Shown one piece after another: positions 1 to 21,012 of a stretch of 22,607 nucleotides of DNA; position 1 is the stretch's first letter; each line of letters opens with the position of its first letter. Made by a program: the position numbers and the translations under genes. The stretch is from a virus. The stretch spans positions 1-22,607 of the IMG/VR virus record IMGVR_UViG_3300035145_001615; one strand, 5' to 3'. Below the pieces are notes generated by a model. It did not search any database. It was given only the letters and a program-made list of their open reading frames with translations, and was not told the origin of the DNA.

Positions 1-159
1 TTGTACAACAAGGCAGGCGTAAAAGTGAAGCAGTACGTCCTCAAGGGTGCATGGCCTAGCGAGTACAGCATCGGTGACTTTGACGCTTCGTCTAACGACG
101 TTGTGATCTCTACGCTTACCGTACAGCACCACGGCATTATTGAGACGGATCTCCTCTAG
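1..159 (+). CDS. tail tube protein, gp19-like (C-terminal fragment)
   Basis: The window opens inside a gene read in frame 1 and ending at TAG 157-159; 52 residues are visible. The fragment contains KGAWPSEYSIGDFDASSNDV followed by a beta-strand ending in QHHGI. This matches the C-terminal pattern of T4 gp19-family tube proteins, where a G-x-W/F-P segment precedes a final strand that closes the tube beta-barrel. In that family the protein forms stacked hexameric rings inside the contractile sheath, making the channel for DNA. A tube gene directly upstream of a gp26-like chaperone and tape measure fits the usual T4-like/P2-like tail order. The sheath gene would be expected further upstream, outside the window. 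The true start cannot be seen, so full length is unknown. Family assignment rests on a short fragment plus context. Confidence 0.8.
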   Translation: MYNKAGVKVKQYVLKGAWPSEYSIGDFDASSNDVVISTLTVQHHGIIETDLL

Positions 160-239: not shown

Positions 240-1064
240 ATGATTGAGGCAAGTGACCGAGTCACGCTCCCTATTGGCGTGACGGTGGATGGAAAGCGTT
301 ACCGTGAGGTGGTCATCGACGAGATGACTGGTGTGGACGAGGAGAACCTCGCTTCTAAAAAGGTGAGGAACAACGGGGCGAAGGCGATCACGCTACTCTT
401 GAGGCGCTGTATTCAAGAGATCCCTGGTGTGATGGAGCGCAAGAAGAATCCTATGGCGCTTTGTGACGAGGCGATCATTAGGAGTATGTACGTTGCAGAC
501 CGAGACTATCTGATGCTCTGTATTAGGGCGATCAGCGGTAAGGCTGAGACGTTGTTGGAGTACAACTGTCAGGCGTGTAATGCACCTCAAGCTGAGGTCG
601 TTCGCGTGGACAATCTTGATGTGTATGAGTGGGACGATTCAGACCCAGAAGTGTACATCGAACTGCCTCGAGGTTTCCTAGACCCGACGGACAACCAATA
701 TAAGAACAAGCTCGTTTGGCGGTTCATTGATGGCAAGGCGCAGGAGAATATCTCAGCCGCTCCTGAGAATCAGATGGGGTCTGCGATGATCGTATCTGGG
801 CTTAGGAGCGTAGAGGGTATGGATCACCTGCCTTCTACTGAGGACGTGCGCCGTTTGTCTTTGCGTGATCGAGAGGCGATTGCAGACGCGATTGTGTCTT
901 GTAACGTAGGGGCCGACCCTAATATCGAGTGCGTGTGTAGTGCGTGTGGCGATGTGCAGAAGGTTGAGATCAACCTAGCGGCTTTTTTCAGTTCGGCCAC
1001 TCCACAAGCCCAGAAGGGCTCGAAAGATGGGACGAGTGGTCGCAGACTACGGAAGAAGCGTTAG
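240..1064 (+). CDS. tail assembly chaperone / T4 gp26-like baseplate protein (unshifted product)
   Basis: 274 residues. The start ATG at 240 has AGGA at 229-232, seven bases upstream. The body resembles the T4_baseplate (gp26-like) family: an N-terminal beta segment (LPIGVTVDGKRYREVVI), a helical region with a K-A-I-T-L-L-L-R-R-C core, and two Cys pairs, C110-x2-C113 and C233-x2-C236 (with an extra C231), which look like a split zinc-ribbon. In T4, gp26 takes part in hub assembly; in many other phages the gene just before the tape measure encodes a chaperone that binds it. The last 24 residues are Ser/Lys/Arg-rich and low in complexity, as expected of a default tail read when no frameshift occurs. 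A T TTT TTC heptamer at codons 249-250 allows an alternative -1 product. It is unclear whether the true role is hub assembly or tape-measure chaperoning; the position argues for the latter. Confidence 0.75.
   Translation: MIEASDRVTLPIGVTVDGKRYREVVIDEMTGVDEENLASKKVRNNGAKAITLLLRRCIQEIPGVMERKKNPMALCDEAIIRSMYVADRDYLMLCIRAISGKAETLLEYNCQACNAPQAEVVRVDNLDVYEWDDSDPEVYIELPRGFLDPTDNQYKNKLVWRFIDGKAQENISAAPENQMGSAMIVSGLRSVEGMDHLPSTEDVRRLSLRDREAIADAIVSCNVGADPNIECVCSACGDVQKVEINLAAFFSSATPQAQKGSKDGTSGRRLRKKR
983..989 (+). promoter_or_regulatory. -1 ribosomal frameshift slippery heptamer (T TTT TTC)
   Basis: The zero frame of the chaperone gene reads GCT TTT TTC AGT, so T983-TTT-TTC is an X XXY YYZ heptamer in the correct register. 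Tandem Phe tRNAs could re-pair with TTT TTT after a one-base backward slip. After the slip the next codon is CAG at 989-991 and the frame stays open to TAG at 1217-1219, nine bases before the tape measure ATG's A minus spacing. A small stem, AGCCC 1007-1011 with GGGCT 1016-1020 and an AGAA loop, lies 17 bases downstream of the heptamer. That is further than the usual stimulator spacing, so it may not be the active element. Frameshifting in the gene pair before the tape measure is conserved in tailed phages (lambda G/GT is the model). Confidence 0.75.
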
Positions 1065-1219
1065 CATCCATCGTTGTTGCGTTTGCAGAGCGATGGAGTT
1101 GGTCAGCTCATGATACAATGTCGCTACCCACAAGAAAAAGATCCTTATACCTTGAGAAGTTTGAAGAGATCGTAGAGCGAGAGTCTGAGGCCAGTAGAGC
1201 CGCATCTCGCGGGAGGTAG
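989..1219 (+). CDS. -1 frameshift extension of the chaperone, gp51/'T'-domain-like
   Basis: This 76-codon frame-2 segment fills almost the whole gap between the chaperone stop and the tape measure. It is open from 968, after a TGA at 965-967, but contains no ATG, GTG or TTG until an ATG at 1118 that has no ribosome site, so independent initiation is unlikely. With a -1 slip at 983-989 it would be fused to residues 1-250 of the upstream gene, giving a 326-residue product. The peptide looks like a real protein: a Trp-rich helical start (LERWDEWSQ), an amphipathic helix, then RWSWSAHDTMSLPTRKRSL and an acidic helix. The pattern W-S-x5-L-P-x-R followed by a charged helix is typical of gp51-like and short tail assembly chaperone domains that pair with gp26-like genes. 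Such domains recruit the tape measure protein. The assignment rests on pattern and position, not on a database match. Confidence 0.7.
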   Translation, partial: QFGHSTSPEGLERWDEWSQTTEEALASIVVAFAERWSWSAHDTMSLPTRKRSLYLEKFEEIVERESEASRAASRGR

Positions 1220-1224
1220 CGCAC

Positions 1225-4200
1225 ATGGCTTCGTTAAGACAAATGGTAGACATCGCGTTCAACGCAGATGTCACCCCGCTCCGTCGAGTTGTAAACCACG
1301 TCAACAAGATGGAGCGTGGGCTCTATTCTATGAATCGAAGCCTAGACGCGAACTCAAGGGCGCTGAGTCGCAACCAACGATCTGCGAAGAAGTTCAGCGA
1401 CCAGGGGTTGGCGAATATCCAAGCGGGCTTGGTTCAGCTCAGCACCTACATGATGCTGTTTAATCAGCGTCTTGATAATATGTTCGAGAAGGCTACCAAC
1501 CGCTTCTCAGGTGTAGATGAGTCTCTCACACAACTCCGTATTACGATGGGGTTGACGGGCGAGCGATCAATCGAGGCGCTCAGAGGTATGACGCCAGAAG
1601 ACTCTGTCTTAGGCCAATACGATGCGGTCACTCAGCGCATGGCGGAGTTGGCGAGGACTACGCAGTTCACCAATAAGGAATTGGTAGATGTAGCTGACAC
1701 CTTTAAGAAGACAGGTAGGAACGCTAGGGAGACGATGGTCTTAACAGACCTCGCTCGTCAGTTATCGTCTGCTTCTGCGGGCGCGATTGACCTCTCTACC
1801 GCCACCGACATGGTGAATAACTCTATCTACGCCTTTAATGGAAATGTAGACGCGGTGCCTTTGACCTTGGATCGCATGGTCAAGGGGTCACAGACTTTGA
1901 ATATGAGCCTTACGGACGTATCAGAGTCGTTCAAGTCTCTTAGCGGGGCGATGTCTAACCTAGACAACAGCAGGGGCGATGCCGACGCCTTCTTTGTTAC
2001 GATGCTTGCGGGTTATAAGTCTCTGGGCAAGAGCCCTCGAGAAGCCGCAGACAGCATCAAACAGTCTATGAACTCTGTCCTAAACGCATACTCAAAGGTG
2101 GACAAAGAGTTCCTTCGTAGCGCGGGCAAGATGCGCTCTCTAGATCAACTCAAGAAGGTCTATACTAGCCGTGTAACAAGGAACGCAGGCCGTAACGCCT
2201 TACTGGCGGCTCTTGGCCTCAGCGATGCGAACTCGGTAGAGGTGACAGCCAAGGCTCAAGAGATCGCCAAACAAGTCGGTTCTACAGTTACGACTGAGAT
2301 CAGGGAGGCGGCGAAAGACGCCTTAGCAAAAGAGCTCTTATCGGGATTCAGCGGTAAGATGACCCCAAGAGAGTTCGTTAAGTTCCTGTCCCTGAGTGAG
2401 AAGCGGTTAAAAGCTCTGGGCAGTAACGACACAGAGGTGGCATCTCGCCTGAAGTCGGCCTTCGGGGCTCAAGCGCTACCGACAATGCTTAAAGCCATGA
2501 AGCTTGTCACAAAGGATGGAGAGTCCTTTGGCGCTCAAATGGATAAACTCATCGATTCATTCGGCACCTTAGACAACGCGGCCAAAGAGAGTCTCAAGAG
2601 CCTGTCTTCAAGGATCAAGCTTGCTGAAAGCGCTGAAGACGCTCTGATGATAGCGATCATGAGAGAAGACGCGATTGCCAAGGGTGCTCTAGAGACATAC
2701 ACATCCTTAATCAGCGCTAGTACAGACTTTATGGATAAGAACCCGAAGGTCGCGCAGTCTGTAGCGGCTTTAGGGCGAGCGCTCCAGTACGCATCTGGGA
2801 TTATGACGAACGTAGGGTTCGCCCTGGTTGCTATGGCTACTTTCTCAATCGGGGCAACCTACGCCTTTAAGGGAACAGGTATGGCCGCGCTCTCGTTGGG
2901 GCGCATTATGGCGGGCTTCTATTCGGTCTTCTTAGCGCCTACTCTTATCATCTTAGTGAAGCTTGGCGTGGCGGTGGCGCTCTTATCTGCGGCCTTTGTT
3001 GGCTTCATAAGATACACGACAGGCGCTAAGACGGTAAGCGAGGGCATGGTTAAGGTCTTTGACTCTCTGAATCAGAAGATCAAGATATTCAGCGGGTTTA
3101 TGGGCCTATATAACAGCGAGATGGATATTTCATCCGAATCGATGAAGGAGCAGGTCGCAACTTCTCAGCGTTTAGAGAAGTTACAAGAAGCCCGCTTAAA
3201 GCTCGCGATGAAGTATAAGCAGGGCGGTGAGCCAGAAGCGCTTGAGCAAATTAGAAAGAAGTACCAAGCGCTAGGAACTGAGATTGACGGCTTAGAGACT
3301 AAGAGGCAGGGCTTCTTAAAGGCGTTCGGAGTTGACTCGCTCATCGCTCTCAAGCAATTGGACGCGGGCACAAGAGATTCTTTGGTCAATAGTTCAATGC
3401 GGATCATAAACGTCATAAGAGCGCTTGGTAACTTTATCGAAGGGTTTATTGAGCCCCTTGGTATGGGTATCAACTTGGTGTTCAATAGCGTTCGTGTAGT
3501 TCTAGAGGCCCTGTTCAAGCCCGTATTCGCCATTGCTCAGGCATTTGGCTACATGGGCACAATAGGAGATATGCTCGCGAACTCATTCGGGTTCCTTATC
3601 GGTTCTATTCTCTCTGGTGTGTTTGTGTTTAAGGCTGTTAGAGCGGCCCTTAACTTCCTGAGCAATTCAGCTACAAAGCTTATGGGAGGTATCGGAGCTT
3701 TGCGGAACGGGATCTCAGCTCTTAGAACGCAGATGGAACTAGAGAACCAATTACTTCAGCACACTAACTACTTATCAGATCAAAGCGAAGTAAGGGCGCG
3801 GAAGCTCGCTATTGGCGTTCAACTCTTAACGGGTAAGATAGGTCAAGCAGTAAGAGGGTATCGGGCGCTTAATCAAGAACTAGAGCGTCAGTTAAGGCTT
3901 CAAGCCCACCAAATGCCTTCTAGTTATCAAGGCCCTCTACCAAGATATGGTAGACGAGCTGAGTATGTAGGGGGAGCGACAGTTTTAACAAGGCTTGACG
4001 CTCCTACACGGGCGGAAAGCGTCATTCAGACTGCGCGTACTGAGGCGACAGCAGTTGCTCAATCAACCTCTCGACTAGATAGGTTCACAAGCCGTGCTAA
4101 TAGAGCGGCGGGCGCGGCCTTTGCTGTGGGCGGAGCGATGTCATTGATGGGCATGGCCTTTGGGATGAGTGGTGGCTTTGTAGACACGTTAGCCAATGGC

Positions 4201-4650
4201 CTTATGGTGGTAGGCATGATTCTGCCTATGCTTACGACTATGATAGGCTTCTTAACCACTACCTTGGGGGCTATGGGCCTTACGCTCGCTACTATCGCTT
4301 GGCCAATACTAGCAATTGTAGCGGCGGGCGCGGCGATATACGGTCTATACAGGCTACTTAGCCCTAGTACAGCGAGCGCTAATACTCTAGAAGGTGAAGC
4401 GTCAAGCGGGTCTACATTGTCTGCACCTAAGTCAGTTCCTGTTGCTCAGGCTAGTATCGCCCCTGGGCAGGTTGCGGTGCCAAGAGCTGTATCAATGCCT
4501 CAAGCGATGGGGTCTAGTTATGAGCCAACCTCTGCGATCTCAGCTCGCGAGGTTAATATCCATGTGCATGAGAAGGTACAGAACGCTGACGATCTTGCTA
4601 ACATGGTTAAGAGGGCGATTAAAGACAACCGAACTAACATCATAACGTAG
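1225..4650 (+). CDS. tail tape measure protein
   Basis: 1141 residues. ATG 1225 is preceded by GGGAGG at 1211-1216, eight bases upstream. The protein sets tail length and is ejected ahead of the DNA. The N-terminal 480 residues are helical with a core like TP901-type tape measures (SVLGQYDAVTQRMAELARTT, later NSIYAFNG and ADAFFVTMLAGYKSLGKSPREAADSIKQ). Hydrophobic stretches fall at about 524-600, about 785-800 and a long block at about 960-1046; such segments are common in this family and may form the membrane channel. A charged helical region (about 640-700) separates the first two. The extreme C-terminus is a short hydrophilic tail with VNIHVHEKVQNADDLANMV, a strand-helix motif often seen at tape measure C-termini that contacts the hub. 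At about 1.5 angstrom per residue, a known rule for this family, the tail would be near 170 nm. No peptidoglycan hydrolase motif is seen. Confidence 0.93.
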   Translation: MASLRQMVDIAFNADVTPLRRVVNHVNKMERGLYSMNRSLDANSRALSRNQRSAKKFSDQGLANIQAGLVQLSTYMMLFNQRLDNMFEKATNRFSGVDESLTQLRITMGLTGERSIEALRGMTPEDSVLGQYDAVTQRMAELARTTQFTNKELVDVADTFKKTGRNARETMVLTDLARQLSSASAGAIDLSTATDMVNNSIYAFNGNVDAVPLTLDRMVKGSQTLNMSLTDVSESFKSLSGAMSNLDNSRGDADAFFVTMLAGYKSLGKSPREAADSIKQSMNSVLNAYSKVDKEFLRSAGKMRSLDQLKKVYTSRVTRNAGRNALLAALGLSDANSVEVTAKAQEIAKQVGSTVTTEIREAAKDALAKELLSGFSGKMTPREFVKFLSLSEKRLKALGSNDTEVASRLKSAFGAQALPTMLKAMKLVTKDGESFGAQMDKLIDSFGTLDNAAKESLKSLSSRIKLAESAEDALMIAIMREDAIAKGALETYTSLISASTDFMDKNPKVAQSVAALGRALQYASGIMTNVGFALVAMATFSIGATYAFKGTGMAALSLGRIMAGFYSVFLAPTLIILVKLGVAVALLSAAFVGFIRYTTGAKTVSEGMVKVFDSLNQKIKIFSGFMGLYNSEMDISSESMKEQVATSQRLEKLQEARLKLAMKYKQGGEPEALEQIRKKYQALGTEIDGLETKRQGFLKAFGVDSLIALKQLDAGTRDSLVNSSMRIINVIRALGNFIEGFIEPLGMGINLVFNSVRVVLEALFKPVFAIAQAFGYMGTIGDMLANSFGFLIGSILSGVFVFKAVRAALNFLSNSATKLMGGIGALRNGISALRTQMELENQLLQHTNYLSDQSEVRARKLAIGVQLLTGKIGQAVRGYRALNQELERQLRLQAHQMPSSYQGPLPRYGRRAEYVGGATVLTRLDAPTRAESVIQTARTEATAVAQSTSRLDRFTSRANRAAGAAFAVGGAMSLMGMAFGMSGGFVDTLANGLMVVGMILPMLTTMIGFLTTTLGAMGLTLATIAWPILAIVAAGAAIYGLYRLLSPSTASANTLEGEASSGSTLSAPKSVPVAQASIAPGQVAVPRAVSMPQAMGSSYEPTSAISAREVNIHVHEKVQNADDLANMVKRAIKDNRTNIIT

Positions 4651-5504: not shown

Positions 5505-7934
5505 ATGGGGTCACCTACACCCAGAGAGGATAGTTATGTAACTCGGGAAAAACTCATAACGCCGCCTGGTTATGAAGGCCCTACATACTATAAGGTTACT
5601 GTTTATAGGCTTGCCCCCGATGGGGGTCGTTATTATGAAGAAAGATTTCATATTGAAGATGCCAACGGTGATGTGTTTCCTGAGGAGCCCGTTTCACCTT
5701 TAGATTATGAAGAGCCTCCTCCTCCTCCTCCTCCTCCGCCTCCGCCTGCTTGGTCACCTTCAGATTCTGAAAGTGCTCCTCCTCCTCCTCCTCCTCCTCC
5801 TCCTCCTCCTCCTCCTCCTCCGCCTCCTCCGCCTACTCCTCCTAAAGAGGTAATTCCAGTTCAGATTCAAGAAGAGCAATCTGATGAAGAAATGCCTTTA
5901 TTCAAGCGATTACCTGCGTCTGAACTAAACCCTTACGCTTGGATATACAAAGAAGACGAAGTAAAAGAGAACGAGTTAAATACAGACGCTTTCAGTTTTA
6001 AGCCTATCACCTATGCAGGGTTGAGGGATCTTAAGCTGACGAATGAGTACGGTAAATACCCCACAGCAGAAATAGAACTGAGCGATCCAGAGTATAAAAA
6101 GTTAAGTAGCCAAGACCCTAAAACCGACTTAATCACTCGACTCAAAATCGGCACCCTGATCTCCGTCAAGTTCGGATATAGATCGTCCCACATTGTTTGG
6201 CGCTCTCTAAAGGTCATTGAGTCGGAGCTGTCTTTTACTGACGGGACAGTAATCCTCAAGATTAAGGCCATTGCGGGGCACAAGATCAGAGACACGACAA
6301 CGAGTGATGTCTACACCAAGTCTATGGGCGTGACCGCGATTGAGAGATTAGCGCAGTCAATAGGGATGGAAGCCAACCTTAAACGATTGCTTACAGAGGA
6401 GGTCGAGAGTCTTGCAGAGGAAGTCGAAACTAATGGCAGCGCTTCTATTAAACATTCGGCACACAAGCGTGGTTTAGATTACTACATTAGCCCCACATAC
6501 GGCACATTCCTCGTTGAGACGCCTTTTAAGTATGAACTGATTAAAAAGGGCGCTCATCCGATGCGGCTAACCTATGGGTACCCAATTTCATCGATAGCTT
6601 CATTGGATTACAAGCGCGAGCACCCTAAGAAGGGTGGTTCTAATGCTGGCGGGAAGCTGGGCAATACTCAGCAGAAGAGAGAGCAAATCGGACTAAACCC
6701 AGGCGATAAGACTTTCACTTCATATATACGGGGCGCTTTTAAGATCAGGAACGCCCCTAGTGATACTGATTACTTCTTAATTGACCCGCCGTCTAAAGAA
6801 CAAGCCACGTCCTTCTTTCCTATAGCCCAAGGGCACCTATACGAAGATGTGGTGGGCTTATATAGCGAACTTAGCAAGGTCAACGTTAAGAGGGTAGTGA
6901 AGGTTAAGGGCGATACGGTTGTCGAAGGGAGTCCGATAATTGTTAGCGCCAACAGGCTTAAAACCCTGTTACTAAACAATTCAACGGATAAGCACTACGA
7001 GTTTAGCCCCGACGGCTTTTACTATGAAGCGCCCGCAGAGGGTTCCCCTCTATCTGTTCAAGACGCCACCAAAGTAGAGGTTAGGGTTTATACATTTAAG
7101 CAGGCAAGCGACCGAAAAGCGCCTCCACCTAAAGATAAACCTCAGAGCACTAAGAGTGTGGTTGATGCTGATAAGGAGACAGAGTCTTACAGAGATGATG
7201 TAGATACTCTTGTCAGAATACCTTTAGGCCAAGAGGACGAGTCTAAGTTAAAGGACACGACCAGCCCTGGGTATAAGGCCCACCAAAGGATCAAAGAACT
7301 AGAGGCTCAAGCCAAGGCCGATCCTGACAAGTACAGGATTAGGCGTGGCGTAGCTGAAGATAAGTCTAAATATGTCGTGCTACAGACGCTCGTAACTACC
7401 GAAGCGCCCAGCGGTGGCAATAAGGCCAATAAAGAGATCGATGACGGCGCTAAAGTAGATGACGCAGTAGGCGGAACTGACATAGCGATGGCGGATCAAA
7501 CACCTAAGTCATCAGAAGTTAAGCCACCCGCTTCTGCCAGAGCAAGGCGTAGGGCTCCTAAGACGGAGCTAACCATCAAGTTCAAGGCGGGTGACTGGTC
7601 TATGCGGGTCGGAAGGATCGTTGAGATTGTTGATGTGTATAATTCGATTGATGGGTTCTATTACATCAACAAGGAGACACACACCGTCAACGTAGAGGGC
7701 TTTCATACTGAGGTTGTATGTCGTAAGGCTTTAAAGGGAGAGGTGAAGCGTTACGGCGCGGGCAAAGTCAAGGCTCTTAAGGGTACTTCAAAGCCAAAAG
7801 GCGGAGAGCAGGCAGAGAAGGCAAAGGCCGAGCCCGCGTTGAAGGTGATCAGCCAACAAGAACAAGCTCGCCTTGTTGAAGAAAAGAGGCTAGAGCGTGA
7901 AAGAAGTAAGGCTGTCTTTGAGGGCGATTTCTAA
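5505..7934 (+). CDS. baseplate hub protein, gp27/GpD (VgrG N-terminal)-like, with polyproline linker
   Basis: 809 residues. ATG 5505 has AAGGAGG at 5491-5497, seven bases upstream; a nearer out-of-frame ATG at 5500 is too close to that site. Residues 1-70 form a small Tyr-rich beta segment, followed by 11 prolines (71-81), a short acidic spacer and 19 prolines (92-110). From about 163 the protein resembles the hub family: FSFKPITYAGLRDLKL, IGTLISVKFGYRS, a helix at about 274-290 (VTAIERLAQSIGM), and near residue 688 ELTIKFKAGDWSMRVG with the closing beta-barrel strands. The middle, about 400-680, is charged and low in complexity. The C-terminus is a Lys/Glu-rich helical tail. In this family a trimer caps the tube and seats the spike, which is encoded next with a one-base overlap. 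At 809 residues it is about twice the length of T4 gp27; the extra length lies in the N-terminal extension and the internal charged insertions. Confidence 0.85.
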   Translation: MGSPTPREDSYVTREKLITPPGYEGPTYYKVTVYRLAPDGGRYYEERFHIEDANGDVFPEEPVSPLDYEEPPPPPPPPPPPAWSPSDSESAPPPPPPPPPPPPPPPPPPPTPPKEVIPVQIQEEQSDEEMPLFKRLPASELNPYAWIYKEDEVKENELNTDAFSFKPITYAGLRDLKLTNEYGKYPTAEIELSDPEYKKLSSQDPKTDLITRLKIGTLISVKFGYRSSHIVWRSLKVIESELSFTDGTVILKIKAIAGHKIRDTTTSDVYTKSMGVTAIERLAQSIGMEANLKRLLTEEVESLAEEVETNGSASIKHSAHKRGLDYYISPTYGTFLVETPFKYELIKKGAHPMRLTYGYPISSIASLDYKREHPKKGGSNAGGKLGNTQQKREQIGLNPGDKTFTSYIRGAFKIRNAPSDTDYFLIDPPSKEQATSFFPIAQGHLYEDVVGLYSELSKVNVKRVVKVKGDTVVEGSPIIVSANRLKTLLLNNSTDKHYEFSPDGFYYEAPAEGSPLSVQDATKVEVRVYTFKQASDRKAPPPKDKPQSTKSVVDADKETESYRDDVDTLVRIPLGQEDESKLKDTTSPGYKAHQRIKELEAQAKADPDKYRIRRGVAEDKSKYVVLQTLVTTEAPSGGNKANKEIDDGAKVDDAVGGTDIAMADQTPKSSEVKPPASARARRRAPKTELTIKFKAGDWSMRVGRIVEIVDVYNSIDGFYYINKETHTVNVEGFHTEVVCRKALKGEVKRYGAGKVKALKGTSKPKGGEQAEKAKAEPALKVISQQEQARLVEEKRLERERSKAVFEGDF
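5715..5834 (+). repeat. CCT trinucleotide microsatellite encoding two polyproline tracts
   Basis: 5715-5747 encodes 11 consecutive prolines (mostly CCT with two CCG), and 5778-5834 encodes 19 (14 CCT in a row, then a CCG/CCT mix). The spacer encodes AWSPSDSESA. Length changes by replication slippage would remain in frame, so this is a candidate for linker-length variation rather than on/off switching. Runs this long normally need EF-P to prevent ribosome stalling. Confidence 0.95.
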
Positions 7935-9590: not shown

Positions 9591-9941
9591 TTGAAAGATA
9601 AGACCATCATAACTGAAGTGACTAATATTCAAGAAGACCTGCCAGCTCCTTGGGATAAGACAAGCGAGACTGCTGACCAGTACATCGCTCGTCTAAAGAG
9701 CGACCTAGAGGGCGTCAGGGATCTGCTACAAGGTAGAAGTCAAGATTGTTCAATGGTACAATCCGCTGTTGAAGAGACAGTAGGCCTCTTGGCTTATGCG
9801 AGCGTCCAAAAGGAGCTCCATTCACTTAAAGCGATCCTTCAGTCATACGCCACAAAAGAGAAGCATCATGGCACAATCGGTTCAAAGGGGGCTGACCAGG
9901 GAGCGAGACTTCCAACAAGCCAAGGCGCTCCTACCAAGTGA
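9591..9941 (+). CDS. hypothetical protein, probable TTG start
   Basis: 116 residues if started at TTG 9591, which has GGAG at 9580-9583, seven bases upstream. No ATG lies early in the frame (the first internal Met is near residue 54), so the TTG start is the best supported. The protein is mostly helical and acidic with no membrane segment or Cys motif; residues 28-65 (AETADQYIARLKSDLEG-like region) and the segment after 60 could form a helical hairpin or short coiled coil. Its 3' end overlaps the next gene by 74 bases in a different frame. I do not recognise a family. Context suggests a small tail or baseplate accessory protein. Confidence 0.6.
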   Translation: MKDKTIITEVTNIQEDLPAPWDKTSETADQYIARLKSDLEGVRDLLQGRSQDCSMVQSAVEETVGLLAYASVQKELHSLKAILQSYATKEKHHGTIGSKGADQGARLPTSQGAPTK

Positions 9942-11151
9942 TATAGACATCAAGTGGGCTCTGGGCCTGTCTAGCGAAGAGGTGAGGAATCTTCCTTATC
10001 TCAAGCCCGTATTTGATGGTATTGAGTCTACCGCGGCCTCTTTATTAGATGCTATCGAGGTAGTCTCCTTCTTAGTAGAGGCTCTCACTACAGCTTTAAA
10101 TGTACTGTCTACGATTATAGGGGTAGCAGTGGACGCTCTTGAAGGCGTGGTCTTGATAGTCAGAGAGATCCTTGAGCAGATCCAAAGCCTTCTGACTGAC
10201 ACATCTATAAATCTAATGAGCCACGCCCCCACAGAGGCTAAAAGCAGGCGCAAGCCTTCAGACCTGCTGTATGACATTGGTATGTCATATTTAGACCGCC
10301 AAGATGCTAACAGGCCTGTCGCGACTATAGGCGGTTATGGGGTTGCAATAGTGGCGATGTCTTCTCTTCCAAACCCCGACGCGCTGATTCAGAGGCTTGA
10401 TTCTATCAAGAAGGCGTTTGAGCTGTCTAGCGATGAGTTCAAACGCACGGTTAAGGCATCTTCTACGTCTTCTTATAAGACTCGACAGTATGTTGTTGAG
10501 GGTTCTAGCGGGTTAGCCCCTGATTGGGACTACGGCTACTCACTAAGTTCTATACCTGCAATAAGGGACGGCATATTAGACCCCTTAAATAGCTGGATTA
10601 AAAGCGTGTCTGGCTCGAGAGGCTTTTTTGTTAAGGTCAATTCTGCCCTTAACTTGGCCAACCTTAAAATAAACAGAATCAACCAGTACAGCCAGCTACT
10701 GCTACGAGCCGTCTCTTCAGTTACCACAGCGCTTGCACTCGGGGATTCTAACGGCGTTCTTGTTATTGCAGGGCACGGCACAAATGAGGATTTTGCGAGT
10801 GCGATCATTAACTCGCCAAACCATCCAGACTACCCTAAAACTGAACTGAGCGAACTTAACTATGGGAATTATGTGCCTATAACAGCTCCATCGCCTCAAT
10901 TTGCTGACAGCGGGCTCTTCTCGGGCGCTCTTGTAATCCACTTACAGAGTAGCGCTTCAGACCAAAGCATCGCGTTGGTTAAGGCCGTGGCTTCTGCGTT
11001 TACACCTAAGATACAGGGTGAGACGTTGTCTAAGAAGTCATTTGATCAGTATTTAAAGTCTCAGGAAGACCCGCTTAACAACAAGTTAGCGGCAATATCA
11101 TCGGGTGATGGGTATAAGACCGCTTGGTCATCTCGTAAAGACCAAGCTTGA
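9868..11151 (+). CDS. unknown structural protein between spike and wedge genes
   Basis: 427 residues from ATG 9868. An in-frame ATG at 9796 would add 24 Arg/Ser-rich residues, but it has no ribosome site and lies deep inside the previous gene; ATG 9868 has AAGAG at 9856-9860. Residues about 45-115 are strongly hydrophobic and helical (LLDAIEVVSFLVEALTTALN, then VLSTIIGVAVDALEGVVLIV), reminiscent of the helical segment of tape-measure or baseplate helical-bundle proteins rather than a clear transmembrane protein. The rest alternates helix and strand, with GLAPDWDYGYSLSSIPAIRD and VLVIAGHGTNEDFASAI. This gene slot in related clusters often holds a virion protein of unknown function. I cannot assign a role; its size and the unbroken structural gene order support a virion component. 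Confidence 0.65.
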   Translation: MAQSVQRGLTRERDFQQAKALLPSDIDIKWALGLSSEEVRNLPYLKPVFDGIESTAASLLDAIEVVSFLVEALTTALNVLSTIIGVAVDALEGVVLIVREILEQIQSLLTDTSINLMSHAPTEAKSRRKPSDLLYDIGMSYLDRQDANRPVATIGGYGVAIVAMSSLPNPDALIQRLDSIKKAFELSSDEFKRTVKASSTSSYKTRQYVVEGSSGLAPDWDYGYSLSSIPAIRDGILDPLNSWIKSVSGSRGFFVKVNSALNLANLKINRINQYSQLLLRAVSSVTTALALGDSNGVLVIAGHGTNEDFASAIINSPNHPDYPKTELSELNYGNYVPITAPSPQFADSGLFSGALVIHLQSSASDQSIALVKAVASAFTPKIQGETLSKKSFDQYLKSQEDPLNNKLAAISSGDGYKTAWSSRKDQA

Positions 11152-20260: not shown

Positions 20261-20635
20261 ATGGAAATGGAAGGCGTAATTAAGCATATCGCTGAGGCTC
20301 TACTGCCTGTCTTCGGCGCTCTTTTGACTGCGTTCTCAAGCTACGCGGTGACCCTTATCGCTAAGCGACTCAAGATCAAGCTCGCTGACGAGGAGCAAGC
20401 GCTCTTGAGGGCGTCTGTTCGCAAAGCAATCGCGGGGGCTGAAGAGTGGGCGGCTCGTAAGGCTAGTCTCGACACAGACCCTGTGGCGGGGGCTCGTAAG
20501 GCCCAATGGGTACATGAGCGCATCAAGGAGCACTTCCCGAAGGTCGCACCAGATGAATTAGACCGTATCCTCGACGAGGAGTTGGCTATGATTGCTGACG
20601 TCGGCGCGACTCGAGAGAAGAAGTTAGAGGTTTAA
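20261..20635 (+). CDS. holin, LL-H-type (probable)
   Basis: 124 residues. ATG 20261 follows AGGAGG (20250-20255) by five bases; an ATG two codons later has a longer spacing. Residues about 9-33 form one hydrophobic helix (LLPVFGALLTAFSSYAVTLI), followed by KRLKIKLADEEQALLRASVRKAIAGAEEWA. That arrangement of a single N-terminal membrane helix, a K-I-K-L-x-D-E-E-Q stretch and a charged amphipathic helix is characteristic of the LL-H holin family (phage_holin_6_1). Holins of this kind assemble in the cytoplasmic membrane and time lysis. The C-terminal 60 residues are a charged helix. It is the first gene of an apparent lysis cassette set between fibre genes, although no endolysin is present within the window. 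Confidence 0.75.
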   Translation: MEMEGVIKHIAEALLPVFGALLTAFSSYAVTLIAKRLKIKLADEEQALLRASVRKAIAGAEEWAARKASLDTDPVAGARKAQWVHERIKEHFPKVAPDELDRILDEELAMIADVGATREKKLEV

Positions 20636-20639
20636 CACC

Positions 20640-20870
20640 ATGACTTCGGCGATCATCGGCCTCCTCACAACAATAATTCCCATCGTTTTAGACATTGTTT
20701 GTGATAGAATAACGACATCTGAAAAGCCTAAAAATAAGGGTGAGAACGATGTTCGTAGACTTCAACAGTCTAACGACGCGCTCAGCGTCGCTTCTACTTT
20801 TGCTAGTCACGATGACAAGTTGCGGCGTCTTTTGCTCCGAGCAAAGGGCTCCAAACGAAAGTCAAAGTGA
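20640..20870 (+). CDS. small membrane protein, candidate inner-membrane spanin (Rz-like) or antiholin
   Basis: 76 residues. ATG 20640 lies four bases after the holin stop, with AGAGG at 20626-20630. Residues 3-20 (SAIIGLLTTIIPIVLDIV) form one membrane helix; the rest is hydrophilic with a Lys/Arg-rich end (LRRLLLRAKGSKRKSK). A different-frame lipoprotein gene begins inside it at 20749 and runs past its end, the architecture of overlapping Rz/Rz1 spanin genes. Against a spanin: the protein is short for Rz, lacks a clear coiled coil, and positive charge after the helix could place the C-terminus in the cytoplasm, as for a second holin or antiholin. The gene is probably real, given its ribosome site, spacing and cassette position. 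Its role is unresolved. Confidence 0.6.
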   Translation: MTSAIIGLLTTIIPIVLDIVCDRITTSEKPKNKGENDVRRLQQSNDALSVASTFASHDDKLRRLLLRAKGSKRKSK

Positions 20871-21012
20871 AGTAATAGTTGTTGAAAAGTCCGAGATTCA
20901 ACAGAACGAGGACGGCTCCTACACAGTTTCCAAGGGTTGGATGCTGAATAGGATTTATATGGAAGAGCAACTCGAAGAGGCTCTTAATGCTTGCTTAGAA
21001 GGTGAACTGTAA
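20749..21012 (+). CDS. candidate outer-membrane lipoprotein (o-spanin, Rz1-like), overlapping
   Basis: 87 residues from ATG 20749, which has AAGGG at 20736-20740; a GTG at 20740 is in frame but has no ribosome site of its own, so it is rejected as start. The N-terminus is a lipoprotein signal: a short polar leader with an Arg, a hydrophobic core (SASLLLLLVTMTS) and a lipobox M-T-S-C with the acylated Cys at 25. The mature part is short, polar and acidic, with YTVSKGWMLNRIYMEEQLEEAL near the end. The first 122 bases lie inside the preceding small-membrane-protein gene in the +1 frame, as in lambda Rz/Rz1. Its TAA overlaps the ATG of the next gene. The mature part is not Pro-rich as in classical Rz1. 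It could instead be an exclusion lipoprotein. Confidence 0.65.
   Translation: MFVDFNSLTTRSASLLLLLVTMTSCGVFCSEQRAPNESQSEVIVVEKSEIQQNEDGSYTVSKGWMLNRIYMEEQLEEALNACLEGEL

Follow-up and report, generated by a model that had tools for sequence, protein, structure and literature searches.

Evidence for a programmed -1 frameshift in a T4-type tail assembly chaperone gene and for a related arrangement in contractile injection systems

Genes and features of the locus

The analysed DNA, hereafter the window, comprises positions 1 to 22,607 of IMG/VR record IMGVR_UViG_3300035145_001615, read on one strand; all features of the chaperone locus lie on its plus strand. The window edge cuts a tail tube gene of the gp19 family, leaving its C-terminal end (1..159), which matches PF06841 (Phage_T4_gp19, E 7.5e-10) and the PHROG tail tube protein (E 3e-9). 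An ATG-initiated gene encoding a 274-aa tail assembly chaperone follows (240..1064; stop codon at 1062-1064), placed between the gp19-type tube gene and the gene of a 1141-aa tail length tape measure protein (1225..4650; PHROG tape measure, E 2.5e-10; PhageMin_Tail, E 5.7e-8). Cultured phages share this order, with sheath, tube, gp26-like gene, a small extension region and the next large gene.

Near the end of the chaperone gene, codons 981-989 read GCT TTT TTC, so that the heptamer T TTT TTC (983..989) stands in the X XXY YYZ phase of a candidate -1 slippage site. The -1 frame is open over 83 codons, from 968 to a TAG at 1217-1219, and its sole ATG, GTG or TTG in the window is the ATG at 1118, whose product would be just 33 aa long and which sits past the first half of the extension domain. 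Site, phase, open frame and lack of an earlier start were all confirmed as the original prediction had described them. Slippage would join 250 residues of the 0 frame to the 76 codons 989-1216, giving a long form of 326 aa alongside the short form of 274 aa, in keeping with the two product lengths proposed. The -1 frame extension (989..1219, TAG included) was recognised as a DUF6760-related helical domain from its conservation, dN/dS, profile matches and structural model, each described below.

The short form matches T4_baseplate (PF12322; E 4.7e-8, 33.4 bits, curated cut-off 24.5), as do all 18 of the aligned members, which bears out the assignment of the N-terminal part to the gp26 family. 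It carries two CxxC zinc-ribbon-like motifs, while the match to Phage_TAC_7 at its N-terminal end is weak (window E 0.19; 7 of 18 members, best 0.013). Its AlphaFold model (pLDDT 84) is mostly confident to about residue 250 and disordered from residue 252, so the predicted fold ends where the slip codons lie (residues 249-250). Foldseek searches with this model retrieved Bacillus phage BCD7, Aeromonas phage 25 gp26 (E 2.6e-5) and, with E values as low as 2e-15, T4-like baseplate hub assembly proteins; the PDB gave no match. The extension is modelled as helices (pLDDT 82); no fold match was found among viral structures and no match to a solved structure by sequence.

Around the slip site, candidate stimulators were considered on both sides. 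Upstream, a weak Shine-Dalgarno-like AAGG (960..963) lies 19 nt before the heptamer and is regarded as a candidate stimulator only; in the relatives L007-L016, GAGG is found exactly 10 nt upstream of the heptamer, and it is kept at this position in L010 and L014 although GAA is the usual Glu codon there. Downstream, a possible hairpin (990..1048) is not conserved in relatives; the fold of 990-1075 has a stability z of -1.95, with 9 of 200 shuffles as stable, and no compensatory changes supporting the hairpin were found in relatives. A conserved RNA pseudoknot or hairpin as stimulator was therefore rejected, as downstream folds are inconsistently stable and show no covariation.

Elsewhere in the window, a hub-like protein (5505-7934) is unusual among baseplate proteins in carrying two long polyproline stretches close to the N-terminus. 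The ORFs 9591-9941 and 9796-11151 overlap in different frames (+1), the second starting at ATG 9796 or later. In the region 20261-21012, a small membrane protein (20640-20870) comes after a holin-like gene (PHROG holin, E 4e-5) and is overlapped by an ORF bearing a lipoprotein-like signal (20740-21012), a pair reminiscent of Rz/Rz1.

Conservation of the slip site and coding potential of the extension

Viral relatives were pooled from a first scan (5 contigs), an alignment scan (18 loci) and further loci retrieved with the extension itself, giving 17 distinct relatives of 33-79% identity, or 18 distinct sequences with the window. A single extension used as query in the viral scan gave no matches, whereas the extension alignment did find loci. 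A terminase is encoded on the contig of L007, the closest relative, which marks the window as phage DNA and not an injection system.

An in-phase X XXY YYZ heptamer occupies the aligned position in all 17 distinct viral relatives (18/18 including the window), directly after the second CxxC motif, as against 25 of 4366 other codon junctions of the same genes (0.57%). T TTT TTC is carried by the window, L018, L021-L024 and L032, G GGT TTT by L008, L011-L013, L015 and L016, and A AAT TTT by L019; G GGT TTT overlaps T TTT TTC in L007, L014 and L017, and T TTT TTA in L010. Three chemically different versions are thus represented, each compatible with tandem -1 slippage. The distance from slip site to 0-frame stop ranges from 16 to 85 nt among relatives.

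Past the 0-frame stop, the extension has a dN/dS of 0.04-0.26 (8 pairs; dN 0.17 and dS 0.65 for the window and L007), which argues that it is protein-coding and under purifying selection. Phe, Ala, Trp and Arg positions are invariant in its alignment, and Leu, Pro and Tyr nearly so; together with the helical model, this is in keeping with the suggestion that the -1 frame encodes a real helical domain. The W-S-x5-L-P-x-R motif noticed there was essentially right, its broader form across relatives being W-x-W-x4-L-x-L-P-x-R-x-R.

The expectation that relatives would keep the heptamer therefore held throughout, while that of a start-less -1 frame held in most of them: no ATG, GTG or TTG exists in this frame in nine loci (L002, L008, L009 and L011-L016, L002 and L012 being the same contig), but L019 contains start codons there, as do, upstream of the slip, L007 and L024. 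No -1 frame had a stop before the domain end, and in most relatives no start codon would give the whole domain, so that none of the observations named beforehand as contrary to frameshifting held. Estimates of chance from the single sequence (3 of 4927 83-codon stretches open in the -1 frame of the window's genes; heptamer and -1 frame open to the 0-frame stop in 3.0% of synonymous recoding trials of this one gene) are, on their own, suggestive of a frameshift; the observation is settled because all 17 distinct relatives carry the aligned in-phase heptamer. Site, phase, conservation, coding extension, gene order and family are thus established at the sequence level.

Outside this set, two further phages point to independent parallel cases of the same -1 arrangement. 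In the cultured Agrobacterium phage Atu_ph07, T TTT TTC precedes the 0-frame stop by 3 nt and the -1 extension has 76 aa, only 40 of them annotated; the huge phage LR756511 has G GGT TTT TTC. A similar-looking extension is found in the +1 frame of gp26-like genes of the Streptomyces phages BRock, LuckySocke and pSt2308 (loci L154, L155 and L157), Bacillus phage SP-15 (L156), and Streptococcus phage GXN1 and huge phage LR756508 (L158 and L159). The junction ATC CTG TTT CRN GAA CTC TRA TTA is common to L154, L155 and L157 and could hold a +1 site.

A related arrangement in contractile injection systems

Pfam DUF6760 (PF20546) matches the extension weakly in 14 of 18 members (best E 6e-5), with scores under the curated cut-off of 27 (window, 16.6 bits; best member tested, 23.4). 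Profile-profile comparison of the extension with DUF6760 of contractile injection systems (eCIS) gave E 5.5e-8, with 0 of 200 column shuffles as good, and indicates that the two are related. The link also holds for the preceding protein, residues 1-122 of the window protein showing homology to the eCIS chaperone family (E 1.7e-10). A scan of bacterial genomes with the phage protein as query found no bacterial relatives, whereas the eCIS chaperone query did.

In a Nostoc contractile injection locus (L037), DUF6760 lies in the -1 frame directly after a gene annotated as 'phage tail assembly protein' and is itself annotated from an ATA codon. DUF6760 was in the -1 frame every time in 25 loci and two plasmids, with G GGG GAR, G GGG GGN or C CCG GGG as slip site, the 25 loci coming from Acidobacteriota, Cyanobacteriota, Pseudomonadota, Chloroflexota, Actinomycetota, Nitrospirota and delta/myxobacterial lineages. 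A DUF6760 profile survey gave hits in 19 of 194 cyanobacterial genomes, 83 of 150 in the family of G011 (Streptomyces) and 3 of 274 in the class of G004; all 46 resolved loci combined a -1 frame DUF6760 with an in-phase G-rich heptamer, and five further eCIS loci read by eye had the same -1 arrangement. These sets comprise L037, L039-L064 and L102-L152, with L153 left out (below the DUF6760 cut-off) and L065 and L066 lacking a usable junction; the counts do not represent independent events, because some contigs occur in them twice and many of the Streptomyces loci are close relatives of one another.

The eCIS heptamer is usually located 0-3 nt before the chaperone stop. The codon preceding GGG ends in G whether it specifies Ser, Leu, Pro, Val, Gln, Thr, Met or Ala, a sign that the heptamer, and not the peptide, is under selection. 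An unannotated -1 frameshift in contractile injection systems is therefore likely on these sequence data. Within 30 nt of the stop, the DUF6760 frame has no ATG, GTG or TTG at 12 of the 46 loci; at 23 of 46 the only start in this frame overlaps the stop, and coupled reinitiation may operate at the latter.

Two variants were observed among these systems. The chaperones of the cyanobacterial eCIS L112, L114, L117 and L121 have no C-terminal CxxC, with the slippery run and -1 DUF6760 kept. The eCIS on a Paracoccus ferrooxidans plasmid (L038:5419-6135) has one ORF, possibly an in-frame fusion of a T4_baseplate-like N-terminal and a DUF6760-like C-terminal part, both matches being weak (E about 0.02 each).

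Alternative origins of the extension

Expression of the extension as a separate small gene from its own start (ATG 1118 or a non-standard codon), possibly through termination-reinitiation at the 0-frame stop, is the alternative that survives best, though it is very unlikely. It draws on the annotation of the domain as an ORF of its own (DUF6760) in eCIS, on the presence of ATG 1118 in the window's -1 frame, on the ATG or GTG that overlaps the stop in some eCIS loci and on the resemblance of G GGG GAG to a Shine-Dalgarno sequence. A free gene starting at ATG 1118 was rejected, since the conserved first half of the domain would be lost, and a start of any standard kind is missing from the frame in nine related viral loci and from the vicinity of the junction in 12 of the 46 surveyed eCIS loci. 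The annotated start in Nostoc is ATA, the -1 relation is present in every resolved eCIS locus, and reinitiation leaves unexplained why phages conserve a heptamer 16-85 nt before the stop.

Slippage of RNA polymerase, rather than of the ribosome, on the T run could also yield the long form, and the six T of the window would suit it. Runs of four or five T are too short for efficient transcriptional slippage, yet they occur in relatives as A AAT TTT A and G GGT TTT TC, respectively, versions that suit tandem tRNA slippage; moreover, the polymerase would need no X XXY YYZ phase, and the phase is kept. This mechanism was rejected as highly improbable. A degraded in-frame fusion, for which the single Paracoccus ORF might be cited, or a sequencing error is scarcely credible, both being refuted by relatives: separately assembled sequences with as little as 33% identity repeat the same layout, and the in-phase heptamer is present every time.

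Proposed mechanism

A programmed -1 frameshift at 983-989, producing the tail chaperones of a contractile-tailed phage in forms of 274 and 326 aa, is thus the reading we hold with very high confidence on comparative grounds, the heptamer being aligned in 18 of 18 sequences and the extension under purifying selection. Most ribosomes would terminate at 1062-1064 and release the short form, while some would slip back by one base on TTT TTC within T TTT TTC and continue in the -1 frame to the TAG at 1217-1219, yielding a long form that ends in the helical DUF6760-like C-terminal domain. The ratio of the two forms would be set by the efficiency of slippage. If lambda gpG/gpGT is a guide, the part common to both forms would coat the tape measure protein (1225-4650), the expected client of the chaperone, and the extension would recruit the tube protein encoded just upstream. 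Slippage, its efficiency and the binding roles are what we infer here, the binding roles from lambda.

Relation to T4 gp26 and gp51 and wider significance

The original prediction regarded the product as a fusion of gp26 and gp51 replacing two separate genes, and this was not borne out. T4 gp51, like gp26, falls in PF12322 as a full-length member (E 4e-52), so that gp26 and gp51 are paralogues, and direct family search of the extensions, including the 76-residue one of the window, against PF12322, the gp51 core, gave no match for any of them. Identity of the extension with gp51 was accordingly rejected in favour of a DUF6760-related helical domain.

A different correspondence emerges at the C-terminal ends. 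Orthologues of gp26 terminate at the slip-site position (in T4 with LKEFFELL before the stop), whereas those of gp51 extend about 45 conserved residues past it. In profile-profile comparisons, the phage fusion aligns with gp26 as far as the slip-site Phe-Phe (E 7e-8) and with gp51 across the extension up to the gp51 C-terminus (E 9e-6); the extension against the gp51 C-terminus alone gave a weak but in-register match (E 5.5e-4) that beats 200 of 200 column shuffles. The short form therefore seems to correspond to gp26 and the long form to gp51, with T4 apparently having the two forms as separate genes. As genes 26 and 51 lie on opposite strands, no fusion is possible in T4. One review describes G-T frameshifting as a conserved trait of long-tailed phages, with T4 as the exception (PMC5009743); gp26 and gp51 are both listed as hub assembly chaperones, gp51 being essential and of unknown function (PMC3004832).

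Taken more broadly, a single recoding-controlled chaperone, with a gp26-type core and a DUF6760-type extension, probably underlies many contractile tails. This reading includes -1 frameshifting in phages and in eCIS of about seven phyla, the latter mostly at the non-canonical G GGG GAR, a +1 extension in other phages and, in T4, a separate paralogous gene for each form (26 and 51). If it is correct, the T4 exception would be a duplication that replaced frameshifting, with gp51 as long-form and gp26 as short-form chaperone, and the annotation of DUF6760 as a free protein would be mistaken. On the comparative evidence, the T4-type chaperone family uses a known mechanism where it was thought absent, and a so far unannotated frameshift product is predicted in the eCIS of many bacteria, which bears on how these particles are assembled to a set length. 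No prior report of frameshifting in a T4-type chaperone or of an eCIS frameshift product was found in the open-access literature searched.

Comparison with known systems

The programmed -1 frameshift of phage lambda gives gpG and gpGT, with gpE and E+E' as the P2 counterpart. Criteria for a chaperone of the G/GT type include two products in a set ratio, their absence from the virion, and binding to tape measure and tube. The window resembles lambda G/GT in its location between the major tail tube and the tape measure and in its start-less -1 extension, and the proposal of a tail chaperone of this kind is supported by that position, the heptamer and the mostly start-less, selected -1 ORF. Unlike in lambda, the 0-frame protein is a gp26/gp51 (T4_baseplate) family member carrying zinc-ribbon-like motifs, and the extension is DUF6760-like. 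T4 gp26 and gp51 belong to the same family as the window protein, but the two forms come from separate genes on opposite strands, without frameshifting. The eCIS loci share a homologous chaperone followed, after a slippery run, by DUF6760 in the -1 frame, and differ from the window in having a shorter chaperone with one CxxC motif and, where annotated, two genes.
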